A stretch of DNA of 64,000 nt, taken from the NCBI RefSeq assembly GCF_000013365.1, contig NC_007778.1, positions 124,001-188,000 of the forward strand, in the 5' to 3' direction. Under the pieces are notes generated by a model that saw only the letters and a list, made by a program, of their open reading frames with translations, made no database searches and had not been told where the DNA came from. The position numbers were made by a program, and so were the translations under genes. Below are positions 39,916 through 51,941 of this stretch, one piece after another; position 1 is the stretch's first letter, and the number at the start of each line of letters is the position of its first letter. This DNA comes from Rhodopseudomonas palustris HaA2. GTDB taxonomy: Bacteria; Pseudomonadota; Alphaproteobacteria; Rhizobiales; Xanthobacteraceae.

Positions 39916-41447
39916 GTCACCTGATCGTCGCCCCGATCATCCTGCCCGCCGTCGTCGCCGCCTTCCTGGTGCTGGTGCTGCGGCACGATCTGACCAGCCA
40001 GCGCATCGTCTCGATGGCGTCGACGCTCGTGCTGCTCGCGATCACGATCTGGCTCTATGTGTCGGCGGCGGAGGGCGCGCCGACGCCCTATCTGCTCGGC
40101 GAATGGCGCGCGCCGTTCGGCATCGTGCTGGTGCTCGACCGCCTCGCGGCGACGATGCTGCTGCTGACGGCGCTGCTGGCCGTCGCGGTGCTGATCTATG
40201 CGATCGCCGGCTGGGACCATCGCGGCCAGCATTTCCATCCGCTGTTCCAGTTTCAGCTGATGGGCCTCAACGGCGCTTTCCTGACCGGCGACGTGTTCAA
40301 TTTGTTCGTGTTCTTCGAGGTCATGCTGATCGCCTCCTACGGCCTGATGCTGCATGGCGGCGGCGCGCGGCGGCTGCGCACGGGCTTCCACTATATCGCG
40401 ATCAATCTGGTCGGCTCGACGCTGTTCCTGTTCGCCGTCGGCCTGATCTACGCGGTGACCGGCACGCTCAACATGGCGGACCTCGCCGCCCGGGTGGCGC
40501 AGATCGCGCCCGGCGACGAAGCCATCCTGCGCGTCGGGGCGCTGCTGCTGCTGCTGGTGTTCGCGCTCAAGGCCGCGTTGGTGCCGCTGCAATGGTGGCT
40601 GCCCTCGGCCTATGCGGCGGCGCCGGGGCCGGTGGCGGCGCTGTTCATGATGATGACCAAGGTCGGTGCCTATTCGATCGTGCGGGTCTACACTGTAGTG
40701 TTCGGCGCCGACGCCGGCGCGTTGGCGGACATCGCCGCGCCCTGGGTGGTGCCCGCGGCGCTGGCGACGCTGGCGCTCGGCGCGGTCGGCGTGCTGGCGA
40801 GCCCGACCTTGCTGGGGATGGTCTGCTTCTCGATCGTCTGGTCGATGGGCTCGCTGCTGCTGGCGCTCGGCCTGTTCGACCCGGTCGGCCTGTCCGCCGG
40901 GCTGTATTATCTGCTGCACTCAACGCTGAGCGGCGCCGCGCTGTTCCTGCTGGCCGATCTGGTCGCCGCGCAGCGCGGTCGCCTCGCCGACCGGCTGGTG
41001 CCGGCGCCGCGGCTGCCCCATGCCGATCTGCTCGCCGGGCTGTTCTTCGTCGCGGCGATCGCCATGACCGGGATGCCGCCGCTGTCGGGTTTTCTCGGCA
41101 AGCTGTTGATCCTCGACGCGACCTGGCGCAGCCCGCTCGCGGTGACGAGCTGGGTGATCCTGCTCGGAAGCAGCCTTCTGGTGATCGTCGGCTTCGCCCG
41201 CGCCGGCAGCACGCTGTTCTGGAAGATCGCCGACCGGCCGGCCGAGCCGGCCGAACCGGCGCGGTCGATCGCGCTGCCGGTCACGGTGATCGCCGGTCTG
41301 CTCGGCGCCACCGCGCTGCTGTCGGTGTTCGCCGGCCCGATCAGCCGCGAACTGGCGGCGACGGCGCAACAGACGCTCGACATCAAGGCCTATGTCCGCG
41401 CGGTGAACCCCGCCGACCTGGCACTGTCGCGGGGGGCGCCGCAATGA
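39912..41447 (+). CDS. mnhD: Mrp-type antiporter subunit D
   Basis: The 511-residue membrane protein is related to complex I NuoM/NuoN. It has about fourteen helices, the FFEVMLIASYGLMLHGG block with the conserved Glu, and the transport Lys in LLLLVFALKAALVPLQWWLPSAYAAAPGPVAALFMMMTKVGAYSIVR. The start is the ATG at 39912, overlapping the mnhC stop; the longer open frame upstream belongs to a shadow of mnhA. It is part of the same coupled operon. Confidence 0.95.
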   Translation: MSHLIVAPIILPAVVAAFLVLVLRHDLTSQRIVSMASTLVLLAITIWLYVSAAEGAPTPYLLGEWRAPFGIVLVLDRLAATMLLLTALLAVAVLIYAIAGWDHRGQHFHPLFQFQLMGLNGAFLTGDVFNLFVFFEVMLIASYGLMLHGGGARRLRTGFHYIAINLVGSTLFLFAVGLIYAVTGTLNMADLAARVAQIAPGDEAILRVGALLLLLVFALKAALVPLQWWLPSAYAAAPGPVAALFMMMTKVGAYSIVRVYTVVFGADAGALADIAAPWVVPAALATLALGAVGVLASPTLLGMVCFSIVWSMGSLLLALGLFDPVGLSAGLYYLLHSTLSGAALFLLADLVAAQRGRLADRLVPAPRLPHADLLAGLFFVAAIAMTGMPPLSGFLGKLLILDATWRSPLAVTSWVILLGSSLLVIVGFARAGSTLFWKIADRPAEPAEPARSIALPVTVIAGLLGATALLSVFAGPISRELAATAQQTLDIKAYVRAVNPADLALSRGAPQ

Positions 41448-41932
41448 CCAGGATGTTTCCGCATCCGATCCTCAGCCTGGTGATCGCCGGCGTGTTCGTC
41501 GGCCTGATCAACACGCTGTCGCTCGGGAGCGTGGTGCTGGGCCTGCTGCTCGGCATCGCGATCCCGTGGTTCACCAGCCCGTATTGGCCGAATCGGCCGA
41601 CGGTCCGCAGCCCGTTGAAGCTCGCCGCCTATCTGGCGATCGTCGGCTGGGACATCGTCGTGTCCAACGTCCAGGTCGCCTACTGGGTGCTGTTCCGGCG
41701 CAGCGCGAGCCTGCAATCGCAATTCGTCGTGGTGCCGCTGGAGCTGACCTCACCCGAGGCGATCGCGCTGCTGGCGGGGACGATCACGATGACGCCGGGG
41801 ACGGTCAGCGCCGATCTCGCCGCCGACGGCAGCGCCATTCTGGTGCATTGCCTGCACACCACCGATCCCGTCGACACGGTCGAGCAGATCAAGACTCGCT
41901 ACGAACGACGACTGAAGGAGATCTTCGGATGA
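41444..41932 (+). CDS. mnhE: Mrp-type antiporter subunit E
   Basis: The 162-residue protein has two or three N-terminal helices (ILSLVIAGVFVGLINTLSLGSVVLGLLLGIAIPWF) and a soluble C-terminal domain with the marker TITMTPGTVSADLAADGSAILVHCLHTTD. The start overlaps the mnhD stop (ATGA) and its end overlaps mnhF. MrpE is specific to these antiporters. Confidence 0.94.
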   Translation: MTRMFPHPILSLVIAGVFVGLINTLSLGSVVLGLLLGIAIPWFTSPYWPNRPTVRSPLKLAAYLAIVGWDIVVSNVQVAYWVLFRRSASLQSQFVVVPLELTSPEAIALLAGTITMTPGTVSADLAADGSAILVHCLHTTDPVDTVEQIKTRYERRLKEIFG

Positions 41933-42198
41933 TCGCAACAGCGTGCCTCATCGCCGTCGGGGTGATCAGCGTCTCGGCGCTGATGAACCTCTTCCGGCTC
42001 GCCACCGGGCCCGACGTGCTCGACCGGATCCTGTCGCTCGATACGCTGACGATCAACGCCATCGGCCTCGTCGTGGTGATCGGAATCTGGTTCGGCACCA
42101 GCCTGTATTTCGAAATCGCGCTTTTGTTCGCGTCGGTCGGGTTCCTGTCGACGGTCGCGTTCTGCAAATATCTGCTGCGCGGCAACGTGATCGAATAG
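41929..42198 (+). CDS. mnhF: Mrp-type antiporter subunit F
   Basis: The 89-residue subunit has three helices and the family block RLATGPDVLDRILSLDTLTINAIGLVVVIGI. The conserved Asp residues in the first loop are present. It overlaps mnhE by four bases and is followed one base later by mnhG. Confidence 0.93.
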   Translation: MIATACLIAVGVISVSALMNLFRLATGPDVLDRILSLDTLTINAIGLVVVIGIWFGTSLYFEIALLFASVGFLSTVAFCKYLLRGNVIE

Positions 42199-42199
42199 C

Positions 42200-42619
42200 A
42201 TGACGATGGCCGGACTGAGCGAATTGCTGGTGTCGGCGCTGATCCTGATCGGCGCGTTCTTCCTGTTCGTCGGATCGTTCGGTCTGGTGAAGCTGCCGGA
42301 CGTGATGCGCCGGCTGCATGCGCCGACCAAATCCACCACGCTCGGCATCGGCTCGCTGCTGATCGCCTCGATGCTGTATTTAGCGCTGCTGCGGGACGAT
42401 CCGTCGCTGCACGAACTGATCATCTCGGTGTTCCTGTTCCTCACCGCGCCGATCACCGCGCACATGATCTCCAAGGCCCACATCCTGCGCAACCGCGCGC
42501 TGCAGCAGGAATTGCCGCAGCCGCCCGGCGACGAAGGCTGGGCGACGCTCGACCCGCATGGGGCGAACGAGACGCGCCTCGATCCGGAACCGACACGGTC
42601 GACAAACGCCAAAGATTGA
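42200..42619 (+). CDS. mnhG: Mrp-type antiporter subunit G
   Basis: The 139-residue subunit has three helices and the signature LIGAFFLFVGSFGLVKLPDVMRRLHAPTKSTTLGIGSLLIAS. The tail after residue 105 is hydrophilic and longer than in short MrpG proteins. ATG 42206 is an alternative start. It ends the operon; a family A REP element begins 15 bases later and probably helps terminate transcription. Confidence 0.93.
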   Translation: MTMAGLSELLVSALILIGAFFLFVGSFGLVKLPDVMRRLHAPTKSTTLGIGSLLIASMLYLALLRDDPSLHELIISVFLFLTAPITAHMISKAHILRNRALQQELPQPPGDEGWATLDPHGANETRLDPEPTRSTNAKD

Positions 42620-42743: not shown

Positions 42744-43097
42744 CTACAGGCACGCCGACACAGCCGGAATCACCAGCCCGGTCCACACCGTCGCGACCAG
42801 CGCCGCGGCATTCGACCCGATCGCGACCCGGCGCGTGAAGGCGGCGGTGCCGTCGTCTGTGCGCCGGGGCAAACGCAGGCAATAGATCAAGAGGCCCATC
42901 AGGGCGACCAGATGCACGCCCAGGATCAGCAACAGGACGAAGCGCTGCAGGCTGATCCCGGCGATCATCGTCTGTTGCCAGCCGAACGCACAACCGAACG
43001 ACAGCCCGCCATACAGCAACGAAAAAGCCGAGGCCCAGACCACGAAGCCGGAGGCGATCAGCAGCAGCGAGGCGGAACGGGCGGGCGAACGCGTCAT
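42744..43097 (-). CDS. small membrane protein of the oxidase operon
   Basis: The 117-residue protein has about three helices: LLLIASGFVVWASAFSLLYGGLSFGCAFGW, FVLLLILGVHLVALMGLLIYCL, and IGSNAAALVATVWTGLVIPAVSACL. It begins four bases after the fused oxidase subunit gene ends, so it is very likely cotranscribed. I do not recognise the family. It could be an assembly factor, a small subunit, or the missing part of subunit III, because the fused III domain upstream appears to have only about five helices. Confidence 0.65.
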   Translation of the reverse strand: MTRSPARSASLLLIASGFVVWASAFSLLYGGLSFGCAFGWQQTMIAGISLQRFVLLLILGVHLVALMGLLIYCLRLPRRTDDGTAAFTRRVAIGSNAAALVATVWTGLVIPAVSACL

Positions 43098-43101
43098 GCC
43101 G

Positions 43102-45627
43102 TCACCCCATCACGCGCGGCAGGCCGTAGACGATCAGCAGCGTCGCGATCCCGATCGCGGCGGTAGCGTCGCTCCACAGCGCGCCGATCCGCAGATCGAC
43201 GGTCCGCGTTTGCGAGACGTAGCCGGTCCGGCTGCGCCAGATGCCGAAGCCGGCGAACACCGCGGCGAGCGCGGCGTGCAGACCGGCATAGATCAGGATG
43301 ATCGTGGTCGCCGCGGCGTAAGCGTGCTGGGTCGGCGGCGGCACCGCGAGGATGACGTCGGCAATGCCGAACAGCGCCACGATCTGCCCGAGCACCGCGA
43401 CCGCCAGCGCCGCCTCGCGCCGACGCCCGCTGCCGATCACCCTGCGGGCGGTCGCGAGCCGGCCGGCGATGAAGCCGAGCAGGAGGCCGGCCGTGCTCAA
43501 CGAGATTCCCCAGGGCGCGAAGGCGATCATCGCAGGCGGCGGCCAGTTCGGCGCCACCACCCACAGAAACAGAATGCCGAAGGCGAGCGACGCGAAGGCG
43601 GTGGCGTCAGCCGCGAGCGTCAACCCCAGCGCCCACAATGACGGCGGCGACGACGCCTCGCTGTGCAGCACCGCCGCGGCGCCGTGGCCGATCGGCAGCG
43701 CGCCGCGATCGCGCCGCTCGCCGGACACCGGCGTCCAGGCCAGCAGCATCGCGACGATCGCCGGCAGCGCCAGCAGCGCCACGACGTACAGCTTGAACAG
43801 CACCGCGACGAAGAACACGCCCGTCACCAGCGCGGTGAACAGCGGCAGCAGCGTGCGGTTCGGCAGCCGCACGATCTGCTCGACCCGCCCCGACATCACA
43901 TCGACGCCGAGCGTCTCCAGCCAGCCGTGGCGGACGAAGCCGAGATAGCCGCCGCCGCGTGCCAGATGGTTGCCGAGATCCGGCCGCTGCTGCAGCGGCG
44001 TGCGCGTCGCGACATCGGGCAATGAGGCGAAGGCGTAGTTCGTCGGCGGCACGGCGATGGACCATTCCAGCGTCCCGGCGCCCCATGGATTGCGCGTACT
44101 GCGTTGGCCGTGCAGCCAGTGCATCAGCACATCGACGGTGAACAGCGCAAACCCGATCGCCATCACGAAGCTGCCGGCCGATGAAATCAGATTCGGCCAC
44201 TCCCATCCGGTCTCGGCGCCGTAGCCGTGAATCCGCCGCGGCATGCCGAGCAGGCCGGTCAGATGCATCACCAGGAACGTCACATTGAAACCGATGATGA
44301 TCAGCCAGAACGCCGGCACGCCGAGGCTGTGGCGCGGCACCCGCCCGGTGATATGCGGCAACCAGTAATACGCCGCCGCCAACATCGGAAACACGAAGCC
44401 GCCGACCAACACGTAGTGCAGATGCGCGACGACGAAATGGGTGTCGTGGACCTGCCAGTTGAACGGCACGATCGCCAACATCACGCCGGTGAGGCCGCCG
44501 ACCACGAACACCGAGAAGAAGCCGAGCAGATACAGCATCGGCAGCTTGAGCTGCGGCCGCCCCGCCGCCAGCGTGCCGATCCAGGCGAAGATCTGCACCG
44601 CGGTCGGCACCGCCACCGCGGTGCTCGCCGAGGAGAAGAACGCCAAAGCGAGATGCGGAATGCCGACCGTGAACATGTGGTGGACCCACAGCCCGAAGCT
44701 GAGGAACGCCAGCGCCACGATGCTGATCACGATCGCGCTGTAGCCGAGGATCTCGCGCCGCGCGAGCACCGGCAGGATGGTCGAGACCATGCCGGCGGCC
44801 GGCAGGAAGATGATGTAGACCTCGGGATGGCCGAACAGCCAGAACAGATGCTGCCAAAGCAGCGCGTCGCCGCCGCGGGTCGGATCGAAGAACGGCAGAT
44901 CGAACGCGCGCTCGACCTCGAGCAGGATCGAGCCGAGGATCAGCGGCGGAAAGCCGAACAGCATCATGAAGGCGGTGACCAGCAGGTACCACGCCAACAG
45001 CGGCATCTTGTCGAGCGACATCCCGGGCGCGCGCATCTTCAGGATCGTCGCGATGATTTCGACCGCGGCCGACAGCGCCGAGATCTCCACGAAGGTGATG
45101 CCGATCAGCCAGATGTCGGAATTGATGCCGGGCGTATAGACCCGCGAGCTCAGCGGCGTGTACATGAACCAGCCGCCGTTCGGCGCCAGCCCGACCGCCA
45201 TCGCGATCAGCAGCATCGAGCCGCCGAACAGATAGCACCAATAGCCGTAGGCGCCGAGCCGCGGAAACGCCATGTCGCGCGCGCCGAGGATCTTGGGCAG
45301 CAGATAGATCGCGAAGCCCTCGAACATCGGGATCGCGAACAGGAACATCATCACCGTGCCGTGCATGGTGAAGACCTGATTGTAGATCTCGGGCTGGAGA
45401 AACGCGCTGCGCGGCGTCGCGAGTTGCGCCCGGATCAGCATCGCCAGGATGCCGCCGATGCCGAAGAACACGAAGGCGGTGGCGATGAAGCGGCGGCCGA
45501 CGATGGTGTGGTTCACCGCTGCGAGCCGGCCCCAGCCGCCCGGCGTGCCCCACACCGCCTCGAGCTGCTTGTGCAGGCGGATCGGGCTCGCCGCCGCTGC
45601 GGATGCGTCCGGACGCTGGTTCGTCAT
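43102..45627 (-). CDS. ctaD: cytochrome oxidase subunit I fused to subunit III-like domain
   Basis: The 841-residue protein has a complete subunit I (residues 1-560). Heme a ligand H89 is in TMHGTVMMF. CuB/cross-link motif HPEVY is H267-Y271, including the A-type Glu269, and CuB ligands are H316-H317. DTHFVVAHLHYVL carries the heme a3/a ligands. D118 of the D-channel entrance is present, but the Asn seven residues later is Gly125, and the K-channel Lys position in the PT-x2-K-IF motif is Gln345. The C-terminal 250 residues (GLTLAADATAFASLAFGILFLWVV onward) resemble part of subunit III. It is close in layout to alternative oxidases of Bradyrhizobium (coxMN type, from memory). The start overlaps the subunit II stop. 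Confidence 0.93.
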   Translation of the reverse strand: MTNQRPDASAAAASPIRLHKQLEAVWGTPGGWGRLAAVNHTIVGRRFIATAFVFFGIGGILAMLIRAQLATPRSAFLQPEIYNQVFTMHGTVMMFLFAIPMFEGFAIYLLPKILGARDMAFPRLGAYGYWCYLFGGSMLLIAMAVGLAPNGGWFMYTPLSSRVYTPGINSDIWLIGITFVEISALSAAVEIIATILKMRAPGMSLDKMPLLAWYLLVTAFMMLFGFPPLILGSILLEVERAFDLPFFDPTRGGDALLWQHLFWLFGHPEVYIIFLPAAGMVSTILPVLARREILGYSAIVISIVALAFLSFGLWVHHMFTVGIPHLALAFFSSASTAVAVPTAVQIFAWIGTLAAGRPQLKLPMLYLLGFFSVFVVGGLTGVMLAIVPFNWQVHDTHFVVAHLHYVLVGGFVFPMLAAAYYWLPHITGRVPRHSLGVPAFWLIIIGFNVTFLVMHLTGLLGMPRRIHGYGAETGWEWPNLISSAGSFVMAIGFALFTVDVLMHWLHGQRSTRNPWGAGTLEWSIAVPPTNYAFASLPDVATRTPLQQRPDLGNHLARGGGYLGFVRHGWLETLGVDVMSGRVEQIVRLPNRTLLPLFTALVTGVFFVAVLFKLYVVALLALPAIVAMLLAWTPVSGERRDRGALPIGHGAAAVLHSEASSPPSLWALGLTLAADATAFASLAFGILFLWVVAPNWPPPAMIAFAPWGISLSTAGLLLGFIAGRLATARRVIGSGRRREAALAVAVLGQIVALFGIADVILAVPPPTQHAYAAATTIILIYAGLHAALAAVFAGFGIWRSRTGYVSQTRTVDLRIGALWSDATAAIGIATLLIVYGLPRVMG

Positions 45628-46322
45628 CGCTTGTCCTGTGGCAGCGCGCGCAGCCGATCGGCGAAGGCATCCGCCTCGAGCGCCTCGACGCTGAAATCCA
45701 TGATGGTGTGGCCGGTGCCGCAGAATTCGGCGCAGACGCCGCGATACATCCCCGGCTGCGCGGCGGAGAGCCGGATCAGATTGACGTGGCCCGGAATCGC
45801 ATCGATCTTGCCGCCGAGCCGCGGGATCCAGAAGCTGTGGATCACATCGGCGCTGCTGACGCGCAGGTCGACCGGCCGGCCGGCCGGGATGTGCAATTCA
45901 TTGACCGAGAACCGCCCGCCGCCCTGCCCGGGATAGCGGAACGTCCACTGCCACTGCTTCGCCTCGACATCGACCCGCAGCGCGTCGGCCGCGGGATGCG
46001 CGAGCAGCCGCTCGCCGGTCAGCAGCCCGTAGCCGAGCAGCGGCGTCAGCACCAGCGCCGGCAGCAACAGCCCGCCGCCGACGAGCCAGAGCTTCGGCGA
46101 GGTCGTGCCGTCGCCGCGCCGCACGAAGGCCCACCACAGCAACCCCATCACCAGCATGAACAGCGCGGTTGCGCCGATCAGCATCACCCACCACAGCTCA
46201 GCGATCGCCGAGGCCGCGGGACCGGCCGGATCGAGCGTCGACAGCGGCCCCCCGCAGCCGGCCAGCGGCAATCCCGACGCCGCGACGATGCCGGCGGTGA
46301 ACCAAGCGCGGCATCGGCGCAT
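45624..46322 (-). CDS. ctaC: cytochrome oxidase subunit II (CuA)
   Basis: The 232-residue lipoprotein-type subunit starts at ATG 46322. The lipobox LAGC falls at the end of the signal, followed by two helices (WWVMLIGATALFMLVMGLLWWAF and LVGGGLLLPALVLTPLLGYGLL). The periplasmic CuA cupredoxin domain has the Trp-rich WQWTFRYPG, the His in DVIHSFWIP and CAEFCGTGHTIM with both Cys, Glu, His and Met ligands. There is no fused cytochrome c domain, so this is aa3-like rather than caa3. It overlaps ctaD by four bases. Only 21 bases separate it from the divergent DUF2231 gene. Confidence 0.93.
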   Translation of the reverse strand: MRRCRAWFTAGIVAASGLPLAGCGGPLSTLDPAGPAASAIAELWWVMLIGATALFMLVMGLLWWAFVRRGDGTTSPKLWLVGGGLLLPALVLTPLLGYGLLTGERLLAHPAADALRVDVEAKQWQWTFRYPGQGGGRFSVNELHIPAGRPVDLRVSSADVIHSFWIPRLGGKIDAIPGHVNLIRLSAAQPGMYRGVCAEFCGTGHTIMDFSVEALEADAFADRLRALPQDKR

Positions 46323-46343: not shown

Positions 46344-46826
46344 ATGCCGAAGACGATTCTCGAAGAAGTCCGCGCTTACGACACCAATTCGATCGTGGCC
46401 CTCGCCGGCCATCCGATCCACGCCATGATGGTCTCGTTTCCGATCGCGCTGGTGATCGCGACGCTCGGCTGCGACATCTTCTACTGGTGGGGCGGCGATC
46501 CGTTCTGGGCGCGCGCCGGGCTGTGGGCCAGCGGCTTCGCGTTCTGGCTCGGCGTCGCCGCCAGTCTCGCCGGCACCGCGGAACTGCTGCTGGTCGAGGG
46601 CATACGCAAGCGCGCGGCGAGCTGGATGCACGCCATCGCCGGGGTGATGCTGGTGTCGATCGCCGGCGCCAATTGGGGTCTGCGGCTGGTCGACCACGAG
46701 AACGTGCTGCCGGTCGGCCTGATGGTGTCGGCGCTGGGCTCGGTGTTCGTCGGCATCGCCGGCTGGCACGGCGGCAAGCTGGTGTTCGATCACGGCATCG
46801 GCCTGATGGTCTCGACGAAGGACTGA
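46344..46826 (+). CDS. DUF2231-type membrane protein
   Basis: The 160-residue protein has four helices. HPIHAMMVSFPIALVIATLGCDIFYWW is the typical DUF2231 opening with conserved His residues, and GWHGGKLVFDHGIGL is the typical ending. The family is uncharacterised but may bind heme or quinone. It is transcribed against the oxidase genes on both sides. Its promoter must lie within the 21-base gap or the subunit II gene, and its last 37 bases overlap the 3' end of the HemJ/CopD-like gene. Confidence 0.85.
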   Translation: MPKTILEEVRAYDTNSIVALAGHPIHAMMVSFPIALVIATLGCDIFYWWGGDPFWARAGLWASGFAFWLGVAASLAGTAELLLVEGIRKRAASWMHAIAGVMLVSIAGANWGLRLVDHENVLPVGLMVSALGSVFVGIAGWHGGKLVFDHGIGLMVSTKD

Positions 46827-47284
46827 AGTCCCCCGGGCTGCCGCATCCATGGCGGAAAGGCCGCGGTTTCGATCGCAGGCTTGTCGAGGATCAGCACCAG
46901 GATGACGCCGATCACCGCGACCGTCACGACGGTCATCACCCAGCGCCGCCACGGCGCGTAGTAGCCCTCCGGTTCGAACACGCTCAGGATCAAATAGCCG
47001 GCCCGCATGTGGATGATCACCAGCAGCCCGACGGCGAGGAGCTTCAGCATCATCCAGGTGGTGAAGACCTCGCGCATGAACAGCAGCGTCGTCCCCGCCA
47101 CCACCGCCACGAACGCCGCCGGCGAGGTGACGGCGATGAACAGCGTCCGGGTGAAGCGGTTCAGCTCGACCGCAGGGCCGCGGCCGAGCCGGCTGCGCTG
47201 GGCAAACAGGCCCGGCAGCACCAGCAGCCCGGCGCACCACACGATCAGCGCCAGAATGTGGATGGCCTTCAGCCACGCGATCAT
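46790..47284 (-). CDS. HemJ/CopD-like membrane protein
   Basis: The 164-residue membrane protein opens MIAWLKAIHILALIVWCAGLLVLPGLFAQ, the HemJ/CopD pattern with a conserved His on helix 1 and a second in LVIIHMRAGYLI. Four helices are visible. Members include protoporphyrinogen oxidase HemJ and copper-resistance CopD, so it may serve heme or copper assembly of the oxidase. It overlaps the CtaG-like gene by four bases. Its stop end overlaps the opposing DUF2231 gene. Confidence 0.75.
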   Translation of the reverse strand: MIAWLKAIHILALIVWCAGLLVLPGLFAQRSRLGRGPAVELNRFTRTLFIAVTSPAAFVAVVAGTTLLFMREVFTTWMMLKLLAVGLLVIIHMRAGYLILSVFEPEGYYAPWRRWVMTVVTVAVIGVILVLILDKPAIETAAFPPWMRQPGGLQSFVETIRPMP

Positions 47285-48048
47285 CGCACCGCTTCATCGA
47301 TTGTCGCGACAGGCTGGTCGAGACGGCTCGCCAGCAGCGCCAACGCCGCCGCCAAATAGGGAATCGATGCCGGCACCCACATGATCAGCCCGGCGAGCTG
47401 CTGATCCTGCAGCGCGGTCAGCCCCCAGGGCGCGGTGACGCCGAGATGCGCCTCGTACAGCGGCGTCCGCGCGAAAGTGATGACGGCGCCGAGCAACCCC
47501 ATCTGCACCACCGAGCCGAGCAAGAGCGCCAGCGTGGTGCCGAGCCGCGTCGCCGGCGACAGCACCGCGCTCCACAGCCACATCGCGCTGCCCAGCAGGC
47601 TCAGCTCCATCACCCAGAACATCGCCGGATCGGCCAGCGCCGCGACGTAGGGCGCCGGCGCGTGCCACAGCCACAGCAGCACCAGATGCACCACGAACGC
47701 CGCGCTGCCGGACGCGGCTCCGAGTCTTTGTGGCACAAGCCGGCGCGGCAGCGACCACGCCAGCAACGGCGCCGCAATTGCGACCATCACGGCATGATGC
47801 GCGACCCGCGCGGAAAACAGCGCCGAGGTCAGCGCACACAGCGGCGACACGAACAGCGCGAACAACAGCGCCCAGGCGGTCGCCGCCGACGCCATGCGGC
47901 TGCGCCGATCGCCTTCGCGCTCGCGCCACAGCAGGCCGAGATGCAGCACACAACCGCCGCCGAGCGCCACCAGCAGCACCGGATCGACATTCCATCGGCT
48001 CAAAAGTTCAGCGGGAAGCGGCGCTGCGCCGCAATAGGGATTGATCAT
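47281..48048 (-). CDS. ctaG: CtaG-like cytochrome oxidase assembly protein (caa3_CtaG family)
   Basis: The 255-residue protein starts at ATG 48048; a longer frame upstream is unlikely. It has about seven helices with the family motifs RVAHHAVMVAIAAPLLAWS, HLVLLWLWHAPAPYVAAL and DQQLAGLIMWVPASIPYLAAAL. The His-rich helices probably bind copper or heme. The family assists CuA/CuB assembly, as for Bacillus CtaG. It is the first gene of the oxidase cluster on this strand. Confidence 0.85.
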   Translation of the reverse strand: MINPYCGAAPLPAELLSRWNVDPVLLVALGGGCVLHLGLLWREREGDRRSRMASAATAWALLFALFVSPLCALTSALFSARVAHHAVMVAIAAPLLAWSLPRRLVPQRLGAASGSAAFVVHLVLLWLWHAPAPYVAALADPAMFWVMELSLLGSAMWLWSAVLSPATRLGTTLALLLGSVVQMGLLGAVITFARTPLYEAHLGVTAPWGLTALQDQQLAGLIMWVPASIPYLAAALALLASRLDQPVATIDEAVR

Positions 48049-48509
48049 GGTACTGTTCCGAAAACGACGATCCCGATGGAGTATCGAAGCGAACGACGGC
48101 GGCGACGGCGCGGCCTCGCCACCACCTGGCGCTACCGCGCGAACGAGCGGCGCTACGCAGAGCTGAGAAGCGCCGGACGGCCAACGCCCGAGCGCACGCC
48201 GGGATGCAGCGCAACATGGTGGCAAAAGGTCACAGGACCGGGACGACACTCCGTCCGGATCGGCAGCGCTGCGCGGGTTTTCGATTCAACTCGTCATGCC
48301 CGGCCTTGTGCCGGGCATCCACGTCTTGCAGCGGGAGCCGCGGGAGAAAGGCGTGGATGGCCGGGCCAAGCCCGGCCACGACGGGAATTGGTTGCGATTG
48401 AGCGGTTTACAGAATGCGCTCTTTGCAGCTCGCATCATGAGTCCGACTGGCGGGATCAGAAGTCACCGCGTCGTGGGGGCCTATCGCTTCAATCCCTCGA
48501 TAAAGCGGA
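48049..48509. other. intergenic region of 461 bases
   Basis: It holds the promoter region of the ctaG-led operon next to 48049, a family A REP element at 48292-48384 and the 3' flank of hutX. No gene is supported. Open frames around 48100-48290 are Arg-rich and lack ribosome-binding sites. Confidence 0.45.
48292..48384. repeat. REP-like palindromic element, family A copy 3
   Basis: CGTCATGCCCGGCCTTGTGC opens the element. It is mirrored by GCCAAGCCCGGCCACGACGG ending at 48384, with GCATCCACGTC / GCGTGGATGG inner arms. It lies downstream of hutX. Arm changes are partly compensated between copies, as expected for a selected stem. Confidence 0.88.
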
Positions 48510-49037
48510 CTAGCCGCCCTGCCCGGCGCCGCAGCGGTCGGCAAGCGCCCTGAACCGCACCAACTGGTCGGCGCGCAATTCGCGGCTGGAATCGCGGCCG
48601 ACGAACACCTTGAACATGATGCCGCCGCCCTGGTTGAGAAATGCCACGAAGGCGCTGGACTTGCCCATGAACGGCCGCTCGACGAAAGCGACGCCGCCGC
48701 AATTGTCGTGTTTCAAATGGCCGTGCAGCCCTTTCGGCTGCATCAGGTTGAAGTAGCCGCGGCCGATTTCACCGGCCGGCACCTCGCCGGTGAATTCGAA
48801 GATCGCATCCTCAGTGTGCACGATCAGCGTCACCTCGCCCCAGCCGGCGATGTCGGCCATCGCCGGGACGAAGCCGTCGCCCGGACCGAGCCGCGCCATG
48901 CCGGGCGGCAGCGCCTCGATCACGTCGCGCGGCGACACCTTCCATTGCCGCGCCACGTCCTCGATCACGGCGGCCGGATTGTCGGCCATATAGGCCCGAA
49001 GATCGGCGGGCTCCGACGTCACGACGGACGCGACCAT
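48510..49037 (-). CDS. hutX: HutX-type cytosolic heme carrier
   Basis: The 175-residue protein matches HutX/HuvX: VARQWKVSPRDVIEALPPGMARLGPGDGFVPAMADIAGWGEVTLIVHTEDAIFEFTGEVP, then GRGYFNLMQPKGLHGHLKHDNCGGVAFVERPFMGKSSAFVAFLNQGGGIMFKVFVGRD. HutX binds heme in the cytoplasm and passes it to a heme-degrading enzyme. It begins 18 bases after the IsdG-like monooxygenase gene, so donor and enzyme are cotranscribed. It is the last gene of the hmuR-led operon. Confidence 0.92.
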   Translation of the reverse strand: MVASVVTSEPADLRAYMADNPAAVIEDVARQWKVSPRDVIEALPPGMARLGPGDGFVPAMADIAGWGEVTLIVHTEDAIFEFTGEVPAGEIGRGYFNLMQPKGLHGHLKHDNCGGVAFVERPFMGKSSAFVAFLNQGGGIMFKVFVGRDSSRELRADQLVRFRALADRCGAGQGG

Positions 49038-49055
49038 GGTGTTCTCCGTTTCCGT

Positions 49056-49391
49056 TCAGGCGGCCGCGGCCGATTTGCGTTCGGTGCGCAGCACTTCGAA
49101 TCCCTCGAACCGGGGATGGCCGAGATACAGGCTCTCCCCGGTCTCGTTGCCGGCCCGCGCATGCGAGCGGCGGAACTGCTCGGACGTCGTCCAGGCCTCG
49201 AACGCGGCCTTGTCGGCCCAGGTGGTGTGGGTCGAATACAGCGTGTGGTCGTCGCTGACCGGCCCCTTGAGGAGATGAAACTCGATGAACCCCTGCATCT
49301 CGCCGAGATAGGATTCGCGCGCGCTCCAGACCGCCTCGAACGCCTGCTCGGCGCCACGTTTCACCTGGAACCGATTCATCGCAATGAACAT
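49056..49391 (-). CDS. IsdG-like heme-degrading monooxygenase (HmuQ/HmuD type)
   Basis: The 111-residue protein starts at ATG 49391 behind GGGAGATGAC. It is a one-domain antibiotic-biosynthesis-monooxygenase fold. The residues equivalent to the IsdG catalytic triad are N6 (MNRFQV), W67 (FEAWTTSEQF) and H77 (RRSHARAG), at almost the same numbers as in IsdG. It should bind heme and open it with oxygen, releasing iron. Rhizobial HmuQ/HmuD are the closest characterised type, but which one this is cannot be said. It lies between hmuR and hutX on one transcript. Confidence 0.88.
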   Translation of the reverse strand: MFIAMNRFQVKRGAEQAFEAVWSARESYLGEMQGFIEFHLLKGPVSDDHTLYSTHTTWADKAAFEAWTTSEQFRRSHARAGNETGESLYLGHPRFEGFEVLRTERKSAAAA

Positions 49392-49462
49392 GTCATCTCC
49401 CTGCCGTTGACTTCGCCACACACCCGCTGCGTTCGGCCCGACGCGCGGGCTGCAGCGAATTC

Positions 49463-51799
49463 CTATGCACCTCCGAAGTGCACCTTGATCCCGCCCTTGT
49501 ACACGATGCCGGCTCCCGGACTGCTGAACAGAACATCGTTCTGCGACGTGCCATCGGTCGACGATCCGGGGATCGCATACGGACGATAGTAGTTGTTGAG
49601 GATATTATCGACCGAGAAGTGCAAGGTCACGTCCGCCGTCGGCCGATAGGCGACGTTGAGATTGACCAGATCGTAGGAGGTCGCCGGCAGATAGCCGGCG
49701 GGCAGATTGGTGTTGGCGGCGTACGACGCCCATTGCGCAGCGATCGTCAGCTTGCGGTCGAGCAGGCGCACGCCGCCCGACGTGACGACCTTGCGCGACG
49801 GCACCGAGGCGAGGCCGAGGCCGGTGTCGGTGTTGACGCCGCGCAGCGTCGAGGCCGACAGGCCGACGAACCACAGCCCGGCGTCGTAGGAGGTCTCGAG
49901 CTCGACGCCTTCGATGCGGGCGTGCGGGATGTTCTGATACTGATAATACTTGCTGTACATGCCGTAGATCGTCGCCTGCGGCGTCGAGGCGACGAGCTCG
50001 ATATAGTCGTCGACGTCGTTGCGGAAGGCGTTGATCTTGCCGCGGAAGCTGTCGCCCGACACGAACACGTCGTTGTATTTCAGATTGATGCCGACTTCCT
50101 TGTTCTTGCCGACTTCGGGCCGCAGCCCGGTGTTCGGGATCAGACAGAACAGGCCGCTGGTGCCGTCCGCGCAGGTGAACAGCGCGGGGCCGCCGCCGGT
50201 GGCGTGCGCGCCCGAGATCAGCGTCTCGGTGATCGACGGCGCGCGATAGCCTTCGGCGTAGCTGACATAGGGCGTCAGCCCCGCCAGCGGTGTGACGCCG
50301 ACGGTGATCTTAGGCGACAGCCGGCTGCCGCTCGCCGAGCTGGTCTCCGAACTGAGCTCGTAATGGTCGTACCGCGCCGCGCCGATCACCTCGAGCCAGC
50401 TCGCGTAGTTGTTCTTGAGCTGGATGAAGCCGCCGGACACGGTGCGCTCGCCGCTCGGGGTGGTGATGTTGGAATTGCCGCGCGAATCCCAGGTCGTGAC
50501 CTTGTCGTTGAAGACATCGAAGCCGTAGGTGACGGCGGTGCGCCAGTCGCCGTAATCGAACCGCGTGGTGTTGTTGGCGTCGATGCCGATCGTATCCAGC
50601 CGGTAGCCGCGCTGGTCGCCGACGCAACCCGAGATGTTGTTGCCGACATTGCCGGTGCCGCAATAGGCCGCGCCGCTGGTGGAGTTGTGATAGGTCTTGG
50701 TCTGATCGTTGTCGGTGCGGTTGCCGTACAGGCTGATGTTCCAGTCGAACAGCATGTCGTCCGGCCGCGAATACTTCCAGCTCATCGTTCCGGTGTAGTT
50801 CTTCACGTTGGATTCGTAGACCGACGAACCCTGATACAGCGCGCGCTGCGCCGCGGTCAGCACCGGGCCGCGATTGAACTGGCCGATATCGTAATTGTAG
50901 TCCTGGAAGATGCCGCCGAACTTGATCTCGTGGCCGTCGGCCGGCCGCACCGTCAGCTTCAGCAGCCCGCCGGCGATGTCGTTGCCGGTGTTGCCGATCT
51001 CGGTGCCGGCGCCGTCCTTGTAGTTGCCTTGCGTGCGATACAGCGCACCGCCGAACACGTCGACGGTGGGATCGACCCGGACGCCGCCGAATATCGAGCC
51101 GAGCCCGCGCGCATTGTTGCTGCCGTAGGACCCCGTCATGTCGACGCCCCAGCGCTCGCCGGCACGCAGCACGTCGTCGATGTCCTTGGTGCGGAACGAC
51201 ACCACGCCGCCGATCGCGCCCGAACCGTAGACGTTGGCGCTGGGGCCGCGCACCACGTCGACGCCGCCGATCAATTCGGGATCGAGAAAGAACGAGCCCT
51301 GCGCATTGTGGCCGGAGCGCTGGTAGTTCTGCCGCGCGCCGTCGACCACCACGGCGACCCGGCCGAAATCCTGCAGGCCGCGGATGTTGATGGCGGTGGA
51401 CGGATCGTCGCCGCGGTCCTGGAACGCCACGCCCGGGGTGGCGACGAAAATGTCCTGCAGCCGGTTCGGCTGCAGCCGCTCGATCTGCCCCTGGGTGATC
51501 GCGCTCGCCGGCGCCAGCGCGTCGATCGCGCGCTCCTCAGTCTTCGTCGCCGACACGGTGATGGTGTCGAGCGCCTGGACGCCTTGCCCGGCCTGCGCCA
51601 GCGCGTCGCGCGGATCGCGCGCAGGCGTTTGCACCTGCTGTTGCGCCGCTGGCTTCGCCGCCTGCTGCCGTTTGGCTTGCTTCTGCTGGTTCGGTGGCGA
51701 CGAGGTCGTCGCGGTTTGCGCCGCAGCGGGCGCCACCGCCAGTGCGACGACGGATCCAGATAGCAACAGCGCACGGATGCGCGAGTTCAGCCCCACCAT
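49463..51799 (-). CDS. hmuR: TonB-dependent heme/hemoglobin receptor
   Basis: The 778-residue outer-membrane receptor starts at ATG 51799. It has a signal peptide to AAAQ near residue 28, a Gln/Ala-rich linker (residues 30-70), TonB box LDTITVSAT (77-85), a plug with DRGDDPSTAINIRGLQDFGRVAVVVDGARQNYQRSGHN, then a 22-strand-type barrel. The heme-receptor box appears as EGYRAPSITETL and NTGLRPEVGKNKEVG, close to the FRAP/NPNL pair. The last residue group KVHFGGA lacks a terminal aromatic, which is unusual. No exbB, exbD or tonB is in the window. An Irr-box-like sequence lies about 140 bases upstream. Confidence 0.92.
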   Translation of the reverse strand: MVGLNSRIRALLLSGSVVALAVAPAAAQTATTSSPPNQQKQAKRQQAAKPAAQQQVQTPARDPRDALAQAGQGVQALDTITVSATKTEERAIDALAPASAITQGQIERLQPNRLQDIFVATPGVAFQDRGDDPSTAINIRGLQDFGRVAVVVDGARQNYQRSGHNAQGSFFLDPELIGGVDVVRGPSANVYGSGAIGGVVSFRTKDIDDVLRAGERWGVDMTGSYGSNNARGLGSIFGGVRVDPTVDVFGGALYRTQGNYKDGAGTEIGNTGNDIAGGLLKLTVRPADGHEIKFGGIFQDYNYDIGQFNRGPVLTAAQRALYQGSSVYESNVKNYTGTMSWKYSRPDDMLFDWNISLYGNRTDNDQTKTYHNSTSGAAYCGTGNVGNNISGCVGDQRGYRLDTIGIDANNTTRFDYGDWRTAVTYGFDVFNDKVTTWDSRGNSNITTPSGERTVSGGFIQLKNNYASWLEVIGAARYDHYELSSETSSASGSRLSPKITVGVTPLAGLTPYVSYAEGYRAPSITETLISGAHATGGGPALFTCADGTSGLFCLIPNTGLRPEVGKNKEVGINLKYNDVFVSGDSFRGKINAFRNDVDDYIELVASTPQATIYGMYSKYYQYQNIPHARIEGVELETSYDAGLWFVGLSASTLRGVNTDTGLGLASVPSRKVVTSGGVRLLDRKLTIAAQWASYAANTNLPAGYLPATSYDLVNLNVAYRPTADVTLHFSVDNILNNYYRPYAIPGSSTDGTSQNDVLFSSPGAGIVYKGGIKVHFGGA

Positions 51800-51941
51800 G
51801 ACAGCCCCGATCGTGTGTGTTGGTTGCGGCTGGCGGGCTCGCCCGAAGGCGGCTGGCTGGCAGAGAAACCGCCAGCAGATGCCGACGGCTTTGAATTTGG
51901 TAACGGAGCCGTGACGGACGGTCAACGTCGCTGCACAACCG

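Follow-up and report, generated by a model that had tools for sequence, protein, structure and literature searches.

The A-family of haem-copper oxidases is described as having both a D- and a K-pathway for protons, and a gene of Rhodopseudomonas palustris HaA2 raises the question of how such an enzyme would take up protons when the lysine of the K-pathway is replaced. The gene lies in the 64,000-nucleotide stretch of DNA that we analysed (NC_007778.1, positions 124,001 to 188,000; hereafter the window, whose own numbering is used throughout), where an open reading frame (ORF) running from 45627 to 43102 on the minus strand, as placed by an initial annotation of this DNA, encodes a protein of 841 amino acids (P0001). 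From comparison of sequences, we consider it probable that P0001 is the catalytic subunit of a working CuA-containing A-family cytochrome c oxidase without a K-channel, in which a rebuilt D-type route would serve as the sole input of cytoplasmic protons.

P0001 is an A-type oxidase subunit with altered proton channels

The ctaD-type gene (43102..45627, minus strand) encodes a fused cytochrome c oxidase polypeptide in which subunit I spans roughly residues 1-560 and subunit III roughly residues 590-841, as judged from family models and structural comparison. P0001 exceeds the cut-off of the CtaD_CoxA model TIGR02891 (707.4 bits against 670.75) and matches PF00115, and its predicted structure (mean predicted local distance difference test score, pLDDT, 90.5) retrieved at Foldseek rank 1 the polypeptide I+III of the Thermus caa3 oxidase (2yev_A; template modelling scores 0.84/0.91). 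Residue equivalences were taken from a phmmer alignment of P0001 to solved oxidases, with Rhodobacter sphaeroides numbers (structure 1m56) transferred via L001, the canonical paralogue in the same genome. D118 (codon 45274..45276, on the minus strand like all codons below) corresponds to D132 at the D-channel mouth, G125 (45253..45255) to N139, E269 (44821..44823) to E286, Y271 (44815..44817), the tyrosine of the His-Tyr cross-link, to Y288, and Q345 (44593..44595) to K362. In the solved-oxidase alignment Q345 sits under the K-channel lysine of PTG(V/I)K, D118 under the D-channel aspartate and G125 under the asparagine seven residues further on, and E269 was read from the printed segments and the residue table described below. 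The initial annotation had claimed this very combination, the aspartate and active-site glutamate kept with Gly125 and Gln345 in place of asparagine and lysine, and the comparison bears it out at all four sites. It had not described the loss of the other two D-channel asparagines, N121 being replaced by I107 (45307..45309) and N207 by E190 (45058..45060), which makes all three replaced in P0001; nor had it described the new glutamates E103 in helix II (45319..45321) and E181 in helix IV (45085..45087; G198 in R. sphaeroides), or a subunit II without the glutamate of the K-channel mouth. E103 is given here as position 117, a number uncertain by one residue (117 or 116) because canonical proteobacterial sequences carry one extra residue there, seen as a one-residue gap in the alignment.

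Compared with the published A1-type fingerprint (PMC3084760; Paracoccus denitrificans numbers), P0001 has the ligands and the helix-VI tyrosine (H89, H267, H316, H317, H402, H404 and Y271), the Glu278 of GHPEVY (E269), the D-channel Asp124 (D118) and the K-channel Thr351 and Ser291 (T342 and S282), and it lacks the D-channel Asn113, Asn131 and Asn199 (I107, G125 and E190) and the K-channel Lys354 (Q345). Assignment to the B-type is not supported: the alternative K-channel of Thr, Ser and Tyr given in the same source is not matched, Q345 stands at the lysine site, and the best family models are A-type. Assignment to the nitric oxide reductases (NORs) is not supported either, as Y271 is present whereas NORs lack the cross-link tyrosine (PMC3084760).

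Both ends of the K-channel are missing among relatives of P0001

Relatives were drawn from 61 near genomes, 385 genomes of the class, 398 of the phylum, the best 80 of 592 loci in a named genome collection, and two plasmid loci. Rows were ranked by their similarity to P0001 and do not amount to a census, with loci from the best 30 genomes at most per genome search, and the counts are of rows and not of independent events because near relatives are included. The residue table holds 172 A-type rows, 67 with K362 (K-bearing) and 105 without it (K-less); left out were two remote ORFs (L118.2, L131.2), a cbb3 oxidase (L004), an oxidase that is bo3-like by our reading with the lysine present (L002) and two copies of the window gene (L003, L005).

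K362, N121, D132, N139, N207 and G198 each occur in 67 of 67 K-bearing rows. At position 362 the 105 K-less rows have glutamine in 95 cases and otherwise alanine, serine or glycine. A lysine displaced by one helical turn, the kind of shift that the initial annotation had warned of, is ruled out as compensation: none of the 105 has K, R, H, D or E at 337-353. Thirty relatives (28 phylum loci and the two plasmid loci, all included in the 105) were read after the pattern had been set, and they carry Q362 in 30/30, E198 in 30/30, E207 in 30/30 and E117 in 29/30, with E101 of subunit II in 0 of the 28 for which that subunit was found, two of these being gapped there; having been chosen by similarity to P0001, they test constancy within the clade and not its edge. 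Among the 384 other genomes of the class sample, 24 gave a best match above 540 bits (the next at 421), and all 24 loci (L035-L058) are K-less, a figure that is a lower bound with two candidates scored per genome. The P0001-type gene occurs in 9 of 16 genomes of the genus.

The other end of the K-channel lies in subunit II, where its mouth in R. sphaeroides is formed by H96 and E101 (PMC10341450, PMC9687966). In the window this subunit is encoded by coxB (45624..46322, minus strand), which has a CuA motif, a lipoprotein-like start and a start codon assigned by eye, scores 169.4 bits against TIGR02866 (cut-off 147.7) in its longer upstream reading, and overlaps with its stop codon the start of ctaD (ATGA). 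Aligning subunit II of L001 to 1m56_B placed the mouth glutamate at chain index 76 and a histidine at 71 by our own count, and adding the 25-residue signal peptide that we assume for 1m56_B turns these into 101 and 96. E101 falls in a somewhat variable motif, [LIV]E[VIL]xWT; among rows for which a subunit II was found, 57 of 58 K-bearing ones have it, the last being unaligned, and none of 68 K-less ones does. A residual acidic mouth was considered and rejected: of 96 K-less rows in a larger set, 86 show neither D nor E from -4 to +8 of the E101 column, and the D or E of the other 10 stands four residues before it, at a different site. The channel thus lacks both its ends, in two genes, which argues against a harmless single substitution. 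Among the plasmid loci, the gene in the subunit II place of L181 (3121-3753) is annotated 'cytochrome B', a name also given to the match in other plasmid rows.

D-channel asparagines are replaced and new glutamates are present

The K-less rows were divided into four parts by the residues at 118, 181, 269 and 345 of P0001, which are therefore constant within each part by definition, while N121, N139, N207, E103 and the ligands are not. The P0001 subgroup comprises 79 rows, nine of them from its own genus, defined by glutamine at 362, glutamate at 198 and an acidic residue at 132 (D in 74, E in 5). Outside these defining traits, E at 207 is found in 79/79 and E at 117 in 78/78 aligned rows, while N121 and N139 are absent from all 79, the former replaced by I, V, M or L and the latter by S (45), G (20), T (13) or A (1). 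The displaced asparagine that the initial annotation had also allowed for is seen in no subgroup row at 121-129 or 183-194, though 4 of the 79 have one in 100-112.

Glutamate at 117, 198 or 207 occurs in 0 of 67 K-bearing rows, while among the K-less rows 86 carry all three, 13 none and 6 other combinations; position 198 alone is E in 92 and G in 13 of the 105. E117, E198 and E207 are the new conserved acidic residues of the subgroup, and a further candidate may be D499 (44131..44133), an aspartate near the end of helix 476-506 that 56 of 62 rows carrying E198 share and that all 67 K-bearing rows lack. In the predicted model E103, E181 and E190 fall within helices 79-114 and 169-197, and, taking the predicted helix limits and the helix sense that we assume, E190 is 7, E103 11 and E181 16 residues from the presumably cytoplasmic helix end. 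A molecular dynamics study lists N121, N139, S197, S200, S201 and N207 among the residues lining the D-channel (PMC10341450), which places positions 198 and 207 in or beside that lining. The earlier proposal that this enzyme may use different proton routes is therefore strongly supported, by the absence of both K-channel ends from two subunits, the replacement of all three D-channel asparagines in the subgroup, and the new E103 and E181.

The other K-less parts differ in their D-channels. In a D-less subgroup of 13 rows D132 is replaced by N or S and K362 by Q, N139 is retained and position 198 is E; 10 of the 13 also have E at 117. A W286 subgroup of ten rows (L056-L058, the second ORF of L081, L085, L086, L088, L092, L093, L095; from Caballeronia, Burkholderia, Paraburkholderia, Rhodanobacter, Methylobacter, Roseovarius and three other genomes) has tryptophan for E286, in the motif GHPWVY or AHPWVY, and retains D132 and N139; its residue at 362 is A, S or G. 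The last three rows (L090, L096, L104), from metagenome-assembled genomes (MAGs) titled actinobacteria, combine Q at 362 with canonical D-channel residues. The D-less members include L079, L082, L089 and L144 (6001-7896); at 60-90% identity L079 has matches in 86 plasmid records, of which those listed are mostly from rhizobia, with the D-less residues confirmed in L144 only, and on a Bradyrhizobium barranii plasmid the D-less oxidase gene lies between fdhD and an FdhF/YdeP oxidoreductase gene together with several cytochromes c.

The catalytic core is kept in a single K-less clade

No aligned row departs from the six histidine ligands, Y288, W172 or R481 (one row is gapped at H102), the cross-link tyrosine being present in 172 of 172 tabulated rows, and R482 is kept in 105/105 K-less rows. 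W172, R481, R482, H411 and D412, which we take to form the proton-exit region, are present in 79/79 rows of the P0001 subgroup. Across ten pairs among five near relatives the ratio of nonsynonymous to synonymous substitution rates (dN/dS) of the core is 0.11-0.26; by this measure the P0001 gene is under purifying selection. A sequencing error or lone pseudogene is ruled out by these values and by Q345 in 30/30 of the later relatives.

A quick tree, built without 22 near-duplicates and three remote rows and with the trait columns left out, split 67 K-less from 54 K-bearing rows with a Shimodaira-Hasegawa-like approximate likelihood ratio test (SH-aLRT) value of 100. A careful tree of 87 hand-picked rows, again with the trait columns left out, separated 56 K-less from 31 K-bearing rows on one branch with ultrafast bootstrap/SH-aLRT support of 100/100 and in 100% of 200 bootstrap trees, and on it K362, E101 of subunit II, 198E, D132 (as D or E) and N139 need one change each. 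In a third tree of hand-picked 65+3 rows, with the trait columns kept and the cbb3 oxidase L004 and the divergent L174 and L175 as outgroups (end branch 7.55), the K-less (41) and K-bearing (24) rows were sisters at 90/82 and 91/79. Collectively, these trees show that the K-less rows they contain form one clade sharing the trait in subunits I and II. L174 and L175, from one genome, carry GHPAVYLP, hence no E286, with a histidine at the K362 position by eye.

A proposed proton route and its alternatives

In canonical oxidases the K-channel mutation K319M (bovine number) blocks reduction of haem a3 (PMC12901375), so a natural K-less enzyme must bring the reduction-phase proton in by other means. 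We propose that in P0001 cytoplasmic protons would enter solely via a rebuilt D-type path that has glutamates on helices II and IV, where E103, E181 and E190, standing between D118 and E269, could form a ladder leading from the one to the other. This path would feed both E269 and the haem a3-CuB-tyrosine site, and the proton of the reduction phase, which in the canonical enzyme comes via K, would be delivered by it as well. More tentatively, and with rather more doubt than assurance, the clade may embody a further natural architecture of proton input, neither D plus K as in the A family nor K alone as in the B and C families, but a K-free route resting on membrane glutamates around E181. The D-less subgroup belongs to this suggestion, as it has neither D132 nor K362; with neither textbook mouth left, its members would need a proton entrance not yet described. 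Were this architecture real, the K-channel would not be universal among the oxygen-reducing haem-copper oxidases.

Several observations weigh against the proposal that a rebuilt D-type path replaces the K-channel. The compensation that a K-less enzyme needs is deduced here and is not directly visible, and the literature searched yielded no biochemistry on any member of the P0001 subgroup. By a helix count made by hand (100 degrees per residue), E181 lies about 125 degrees off the mean direction of S197, S200, S201 and N207, and it may thus point to a neighbouring helix and not to the D-channel. On the careful tree 117E and 207E need three changes each and are not constant. The three K-less rows with canonical D-channels mean that the glutamates cannot enable K-lessness in all members, and they suggest that K-lessness predates the glutamates or is independent of them. 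Since the K-less and K-bearing rows are sisters with distant outgroups, loss of the lysine, as opposed to its never having been gained, is not established.

The alternative we take most seriously, at a little under an even chance, is that the enzyme is decoupled, reducing O2 at full rate and pumping no protons since its asparagine gate is gone, and so serving electron disposal at a low proton yield. Canonical oxidases with the changes N98D/T/S (bovine number; N139 in R. sphaeroides) still reduce O2 but no longer pump (PMC12901375), and the residues now found at N139 throughout the subgroup, the loss of N121 and N207 with it, and the accessory status of the enzyme described below all fit. Yet the proton-exit residues are fully kept, the gain of three acidic residues looks like rebuilding and not decay, and the phenotype of a single mutant may not transfer to another background in which many other channel positions differ; we judge the absence of pumping somewhat less probable than its presence. 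It is unlikely, though conceivable, that Q345 and water make up a residual K-type route, entered without E101, that carries the proton for haem a3 reduction. Glutamine at 362 in 95 of the 105 K-less rows, T or S kept at T359 in 98 and S or T at S299 in 90 would suit such a route, but E101 is absent from all 68 K-less rows scored, the S365 site is A, V or C in 96 of 105, no titratable residue stands at 337-353, and the ten W286 relatives carry A, S or G and not Q.

Supply of protons from the periplasm, as in the cytochrome c-dependent NO reductases (cNOR), with uptake that is not electrogenic, appears improbable to us: in its favour, the 13 K-less rows without D132 and K362 have no known cytoplasmic mouth visible, whereas P0001 retains D118 and E269, and its E190 and E103 lie nearer to what are presumably the cytoplasmic ends of helices IV and II, by predicted limits. 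Least credible of all is a decaying gene or a function other than with O2, such as NO reduction. In its favour, the 67 K-bearing rows never vary at channel residues that are missing here, and a Rhizobium etli coxM-P mutant, affecting an alternative aa3 oxidase whose CoxN may belong to the clade, had no distinct growth defect (PMC4274787); against it stand the low core dN/dS, the intact operon with Caa3_CtaG, and the retention of the ligands and of the cross-link tyrosine, which NORs lack (PMC3084760).

Relation to known oxidases

The canonical A1-type aa3 oxidases (R. sphaeroides, P. denitrificans and the paralogue L001) share with the P0001 system the haem and Cu ligands, E286, Y288, D132, R481, R482 and W172, whereas the P0001 system differs in having no K362, no E101 of subunit II and none of N121, N139 and N207, in its new E103, E181 and E190, and in its fused subunit III. 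The Thermus thermophilus caa3 oxidase (2yev) shares the I+III fusion and the overall fold, and among solved structures its subunit II matches coxB best; that subunit has the motif LEVVWT, absent from the window CoxB. The window CoxB also has no haem c motif (0 CxxCH), which 34 of the 42 K-less loci with a CoxB do have, and the enzyme is therefore not of the caa3 type, which carries a cytochrome c domain on subunit II.

Also close are the fused COX1-3 proteins of 'COX operon type a', already published and including one from R. palustris BisA53 (PMC4013037), which like P0001 join subunits I and III and, with a COX3 query of residues 550 to 841, belong to the same length class. P0001 agrees with that type in its fusion and in the CoxB and Caa3_CtaG genes close by; Caa3_CtaG is often linked to A1 subtype a operons (PMC6431628). 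The words 'channel' and 'proton' occur 0 times in the main text of the COX1-3 paper (PMC4013037), where the channel changes are undescribed. Extra A-type oxidases in proteobacteria are also known as the coxMNOP-type aa3/ccaa3 enzymes (KF707, PMC5492768; R. etli, PMC4274787); the KF707 CoxM carries two haem c motifs (PMC5492768). The D-less and W286 subgroups, at about 640-670 amino acids, are similar in size to the coxMNOP-type oxidases. Subunit III of the latter is encoded by a separate gene, coxO, whereas it is fused in P0001.

K-channel variants have been described in archaeal family A, as losses under one of the hypotheses in that paper, whose examined text mentions no bacterial K-less clade and no new glutamates (PMC8239418). 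A 2011 survey of 1216 sequences reports only four without the channel residues of their family, all nearest to the B-type (PMC3084760), which does not fit the K-less clade found here; its criteria may have been looser. A search of openly available papers found no publication on a bacterial K-less A-type clade. The fusion family is thus already in print, and its clade-wide K-lessness appears undescribed within the literature searched.

For P0001 the textbook rules of proton uptake and pumping may not hold, and the K-less clade, which is widespread and maintained by selection in nature, offers ready-made multi-site variants, part of them without the asparagine gate or D132, for separating the roles of the K-channel, the gate and the D-channel. 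All four K-less proteins run against NCBIfam (P0001, L079, L086, L104) score beyond the ordinary cut-off of CtaD_CoxA; automatic annotation therefore conceals how they differ, and models of yield may assign these enzymes full pumping.

Operon and genome context

The operon is intact, with genes for Caa3_CtaG, a HemJ-related protein, CoxB, CtaD and a protein of 117 amino acids on the minus strand and a DUF2231 gene on the opposite one. The Caa3_CtaG copper-insertion factor (47281..48249, start codon not fixed) matches PF09678 at 100.6 bits. The HemJ-related membrane protein (46790..47284) matches PF03653 at 58.1 bits (cut-off 34.2) and scores 43.9 bits with the HemJ model TIGR00701, below its 138.05; two plasmid records name it CopD family. 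Directly after ctaD, the 117-residue hydrophobic protein (42744..43097), probably a small subunit, has no Pfam or NCBIfam match; relatives of it occupy the corresponding position on Roseomonas, Pelagibacterium and Rhodobacter plasmids. The DUF2231 membrane protein (46344..46826, plus strand; PF09990) is found at the same place in several relatives of the P0001 subgroup. Gene order is the same on the Roseomonas and Rhodobacter plasmids, while on the Pelagibacterium plasmid ctaG, coxB, ctaD and the gene of the small protein are present and the annotation shows neither a HemJ-related nor a DUF2231 gene.

All 14 carrier genomes in the 61-near-genome sample have a further A-type match (333-388 bits), and the two inspected, L001 and L178, are both K-bearing. 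The genome of HaA2 encodes two more oxidases, read as a bo3-like one that is K-bearing and one of cbb3 type. By its gene complement, then, the P0001 enzyme is an extra, accessory oxidase. The initial annotation had also suggested that the enzyme may pump poorly, as would suit a role such as high-flux electron disposal; for that conjectured role the second A-type oxidase in 14 of 14 carriers is the closest evidence.

Several minor features accompany the locus. HemJ-related and DUF2231 genes flank the oxidase in several relatives. Just downstream of the oxidase cluster, on the plus strand, lie genes for Na+/H+ antiporter subunits (40103-42619; MNHE and PhaG/MnhG families), and at the other side a ChuX/HutX haem-utilisation gene and a TonB-dependent receptor gene adjoin it (48510-51925, minus strand). 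Among the K-bearing relatives, L100, from a MAG titled Bifidobacterium breve, has a haem c motif in subunit II; such an A-type oxidase is unexpected for that species, and the MAG is perhaps misnamed.

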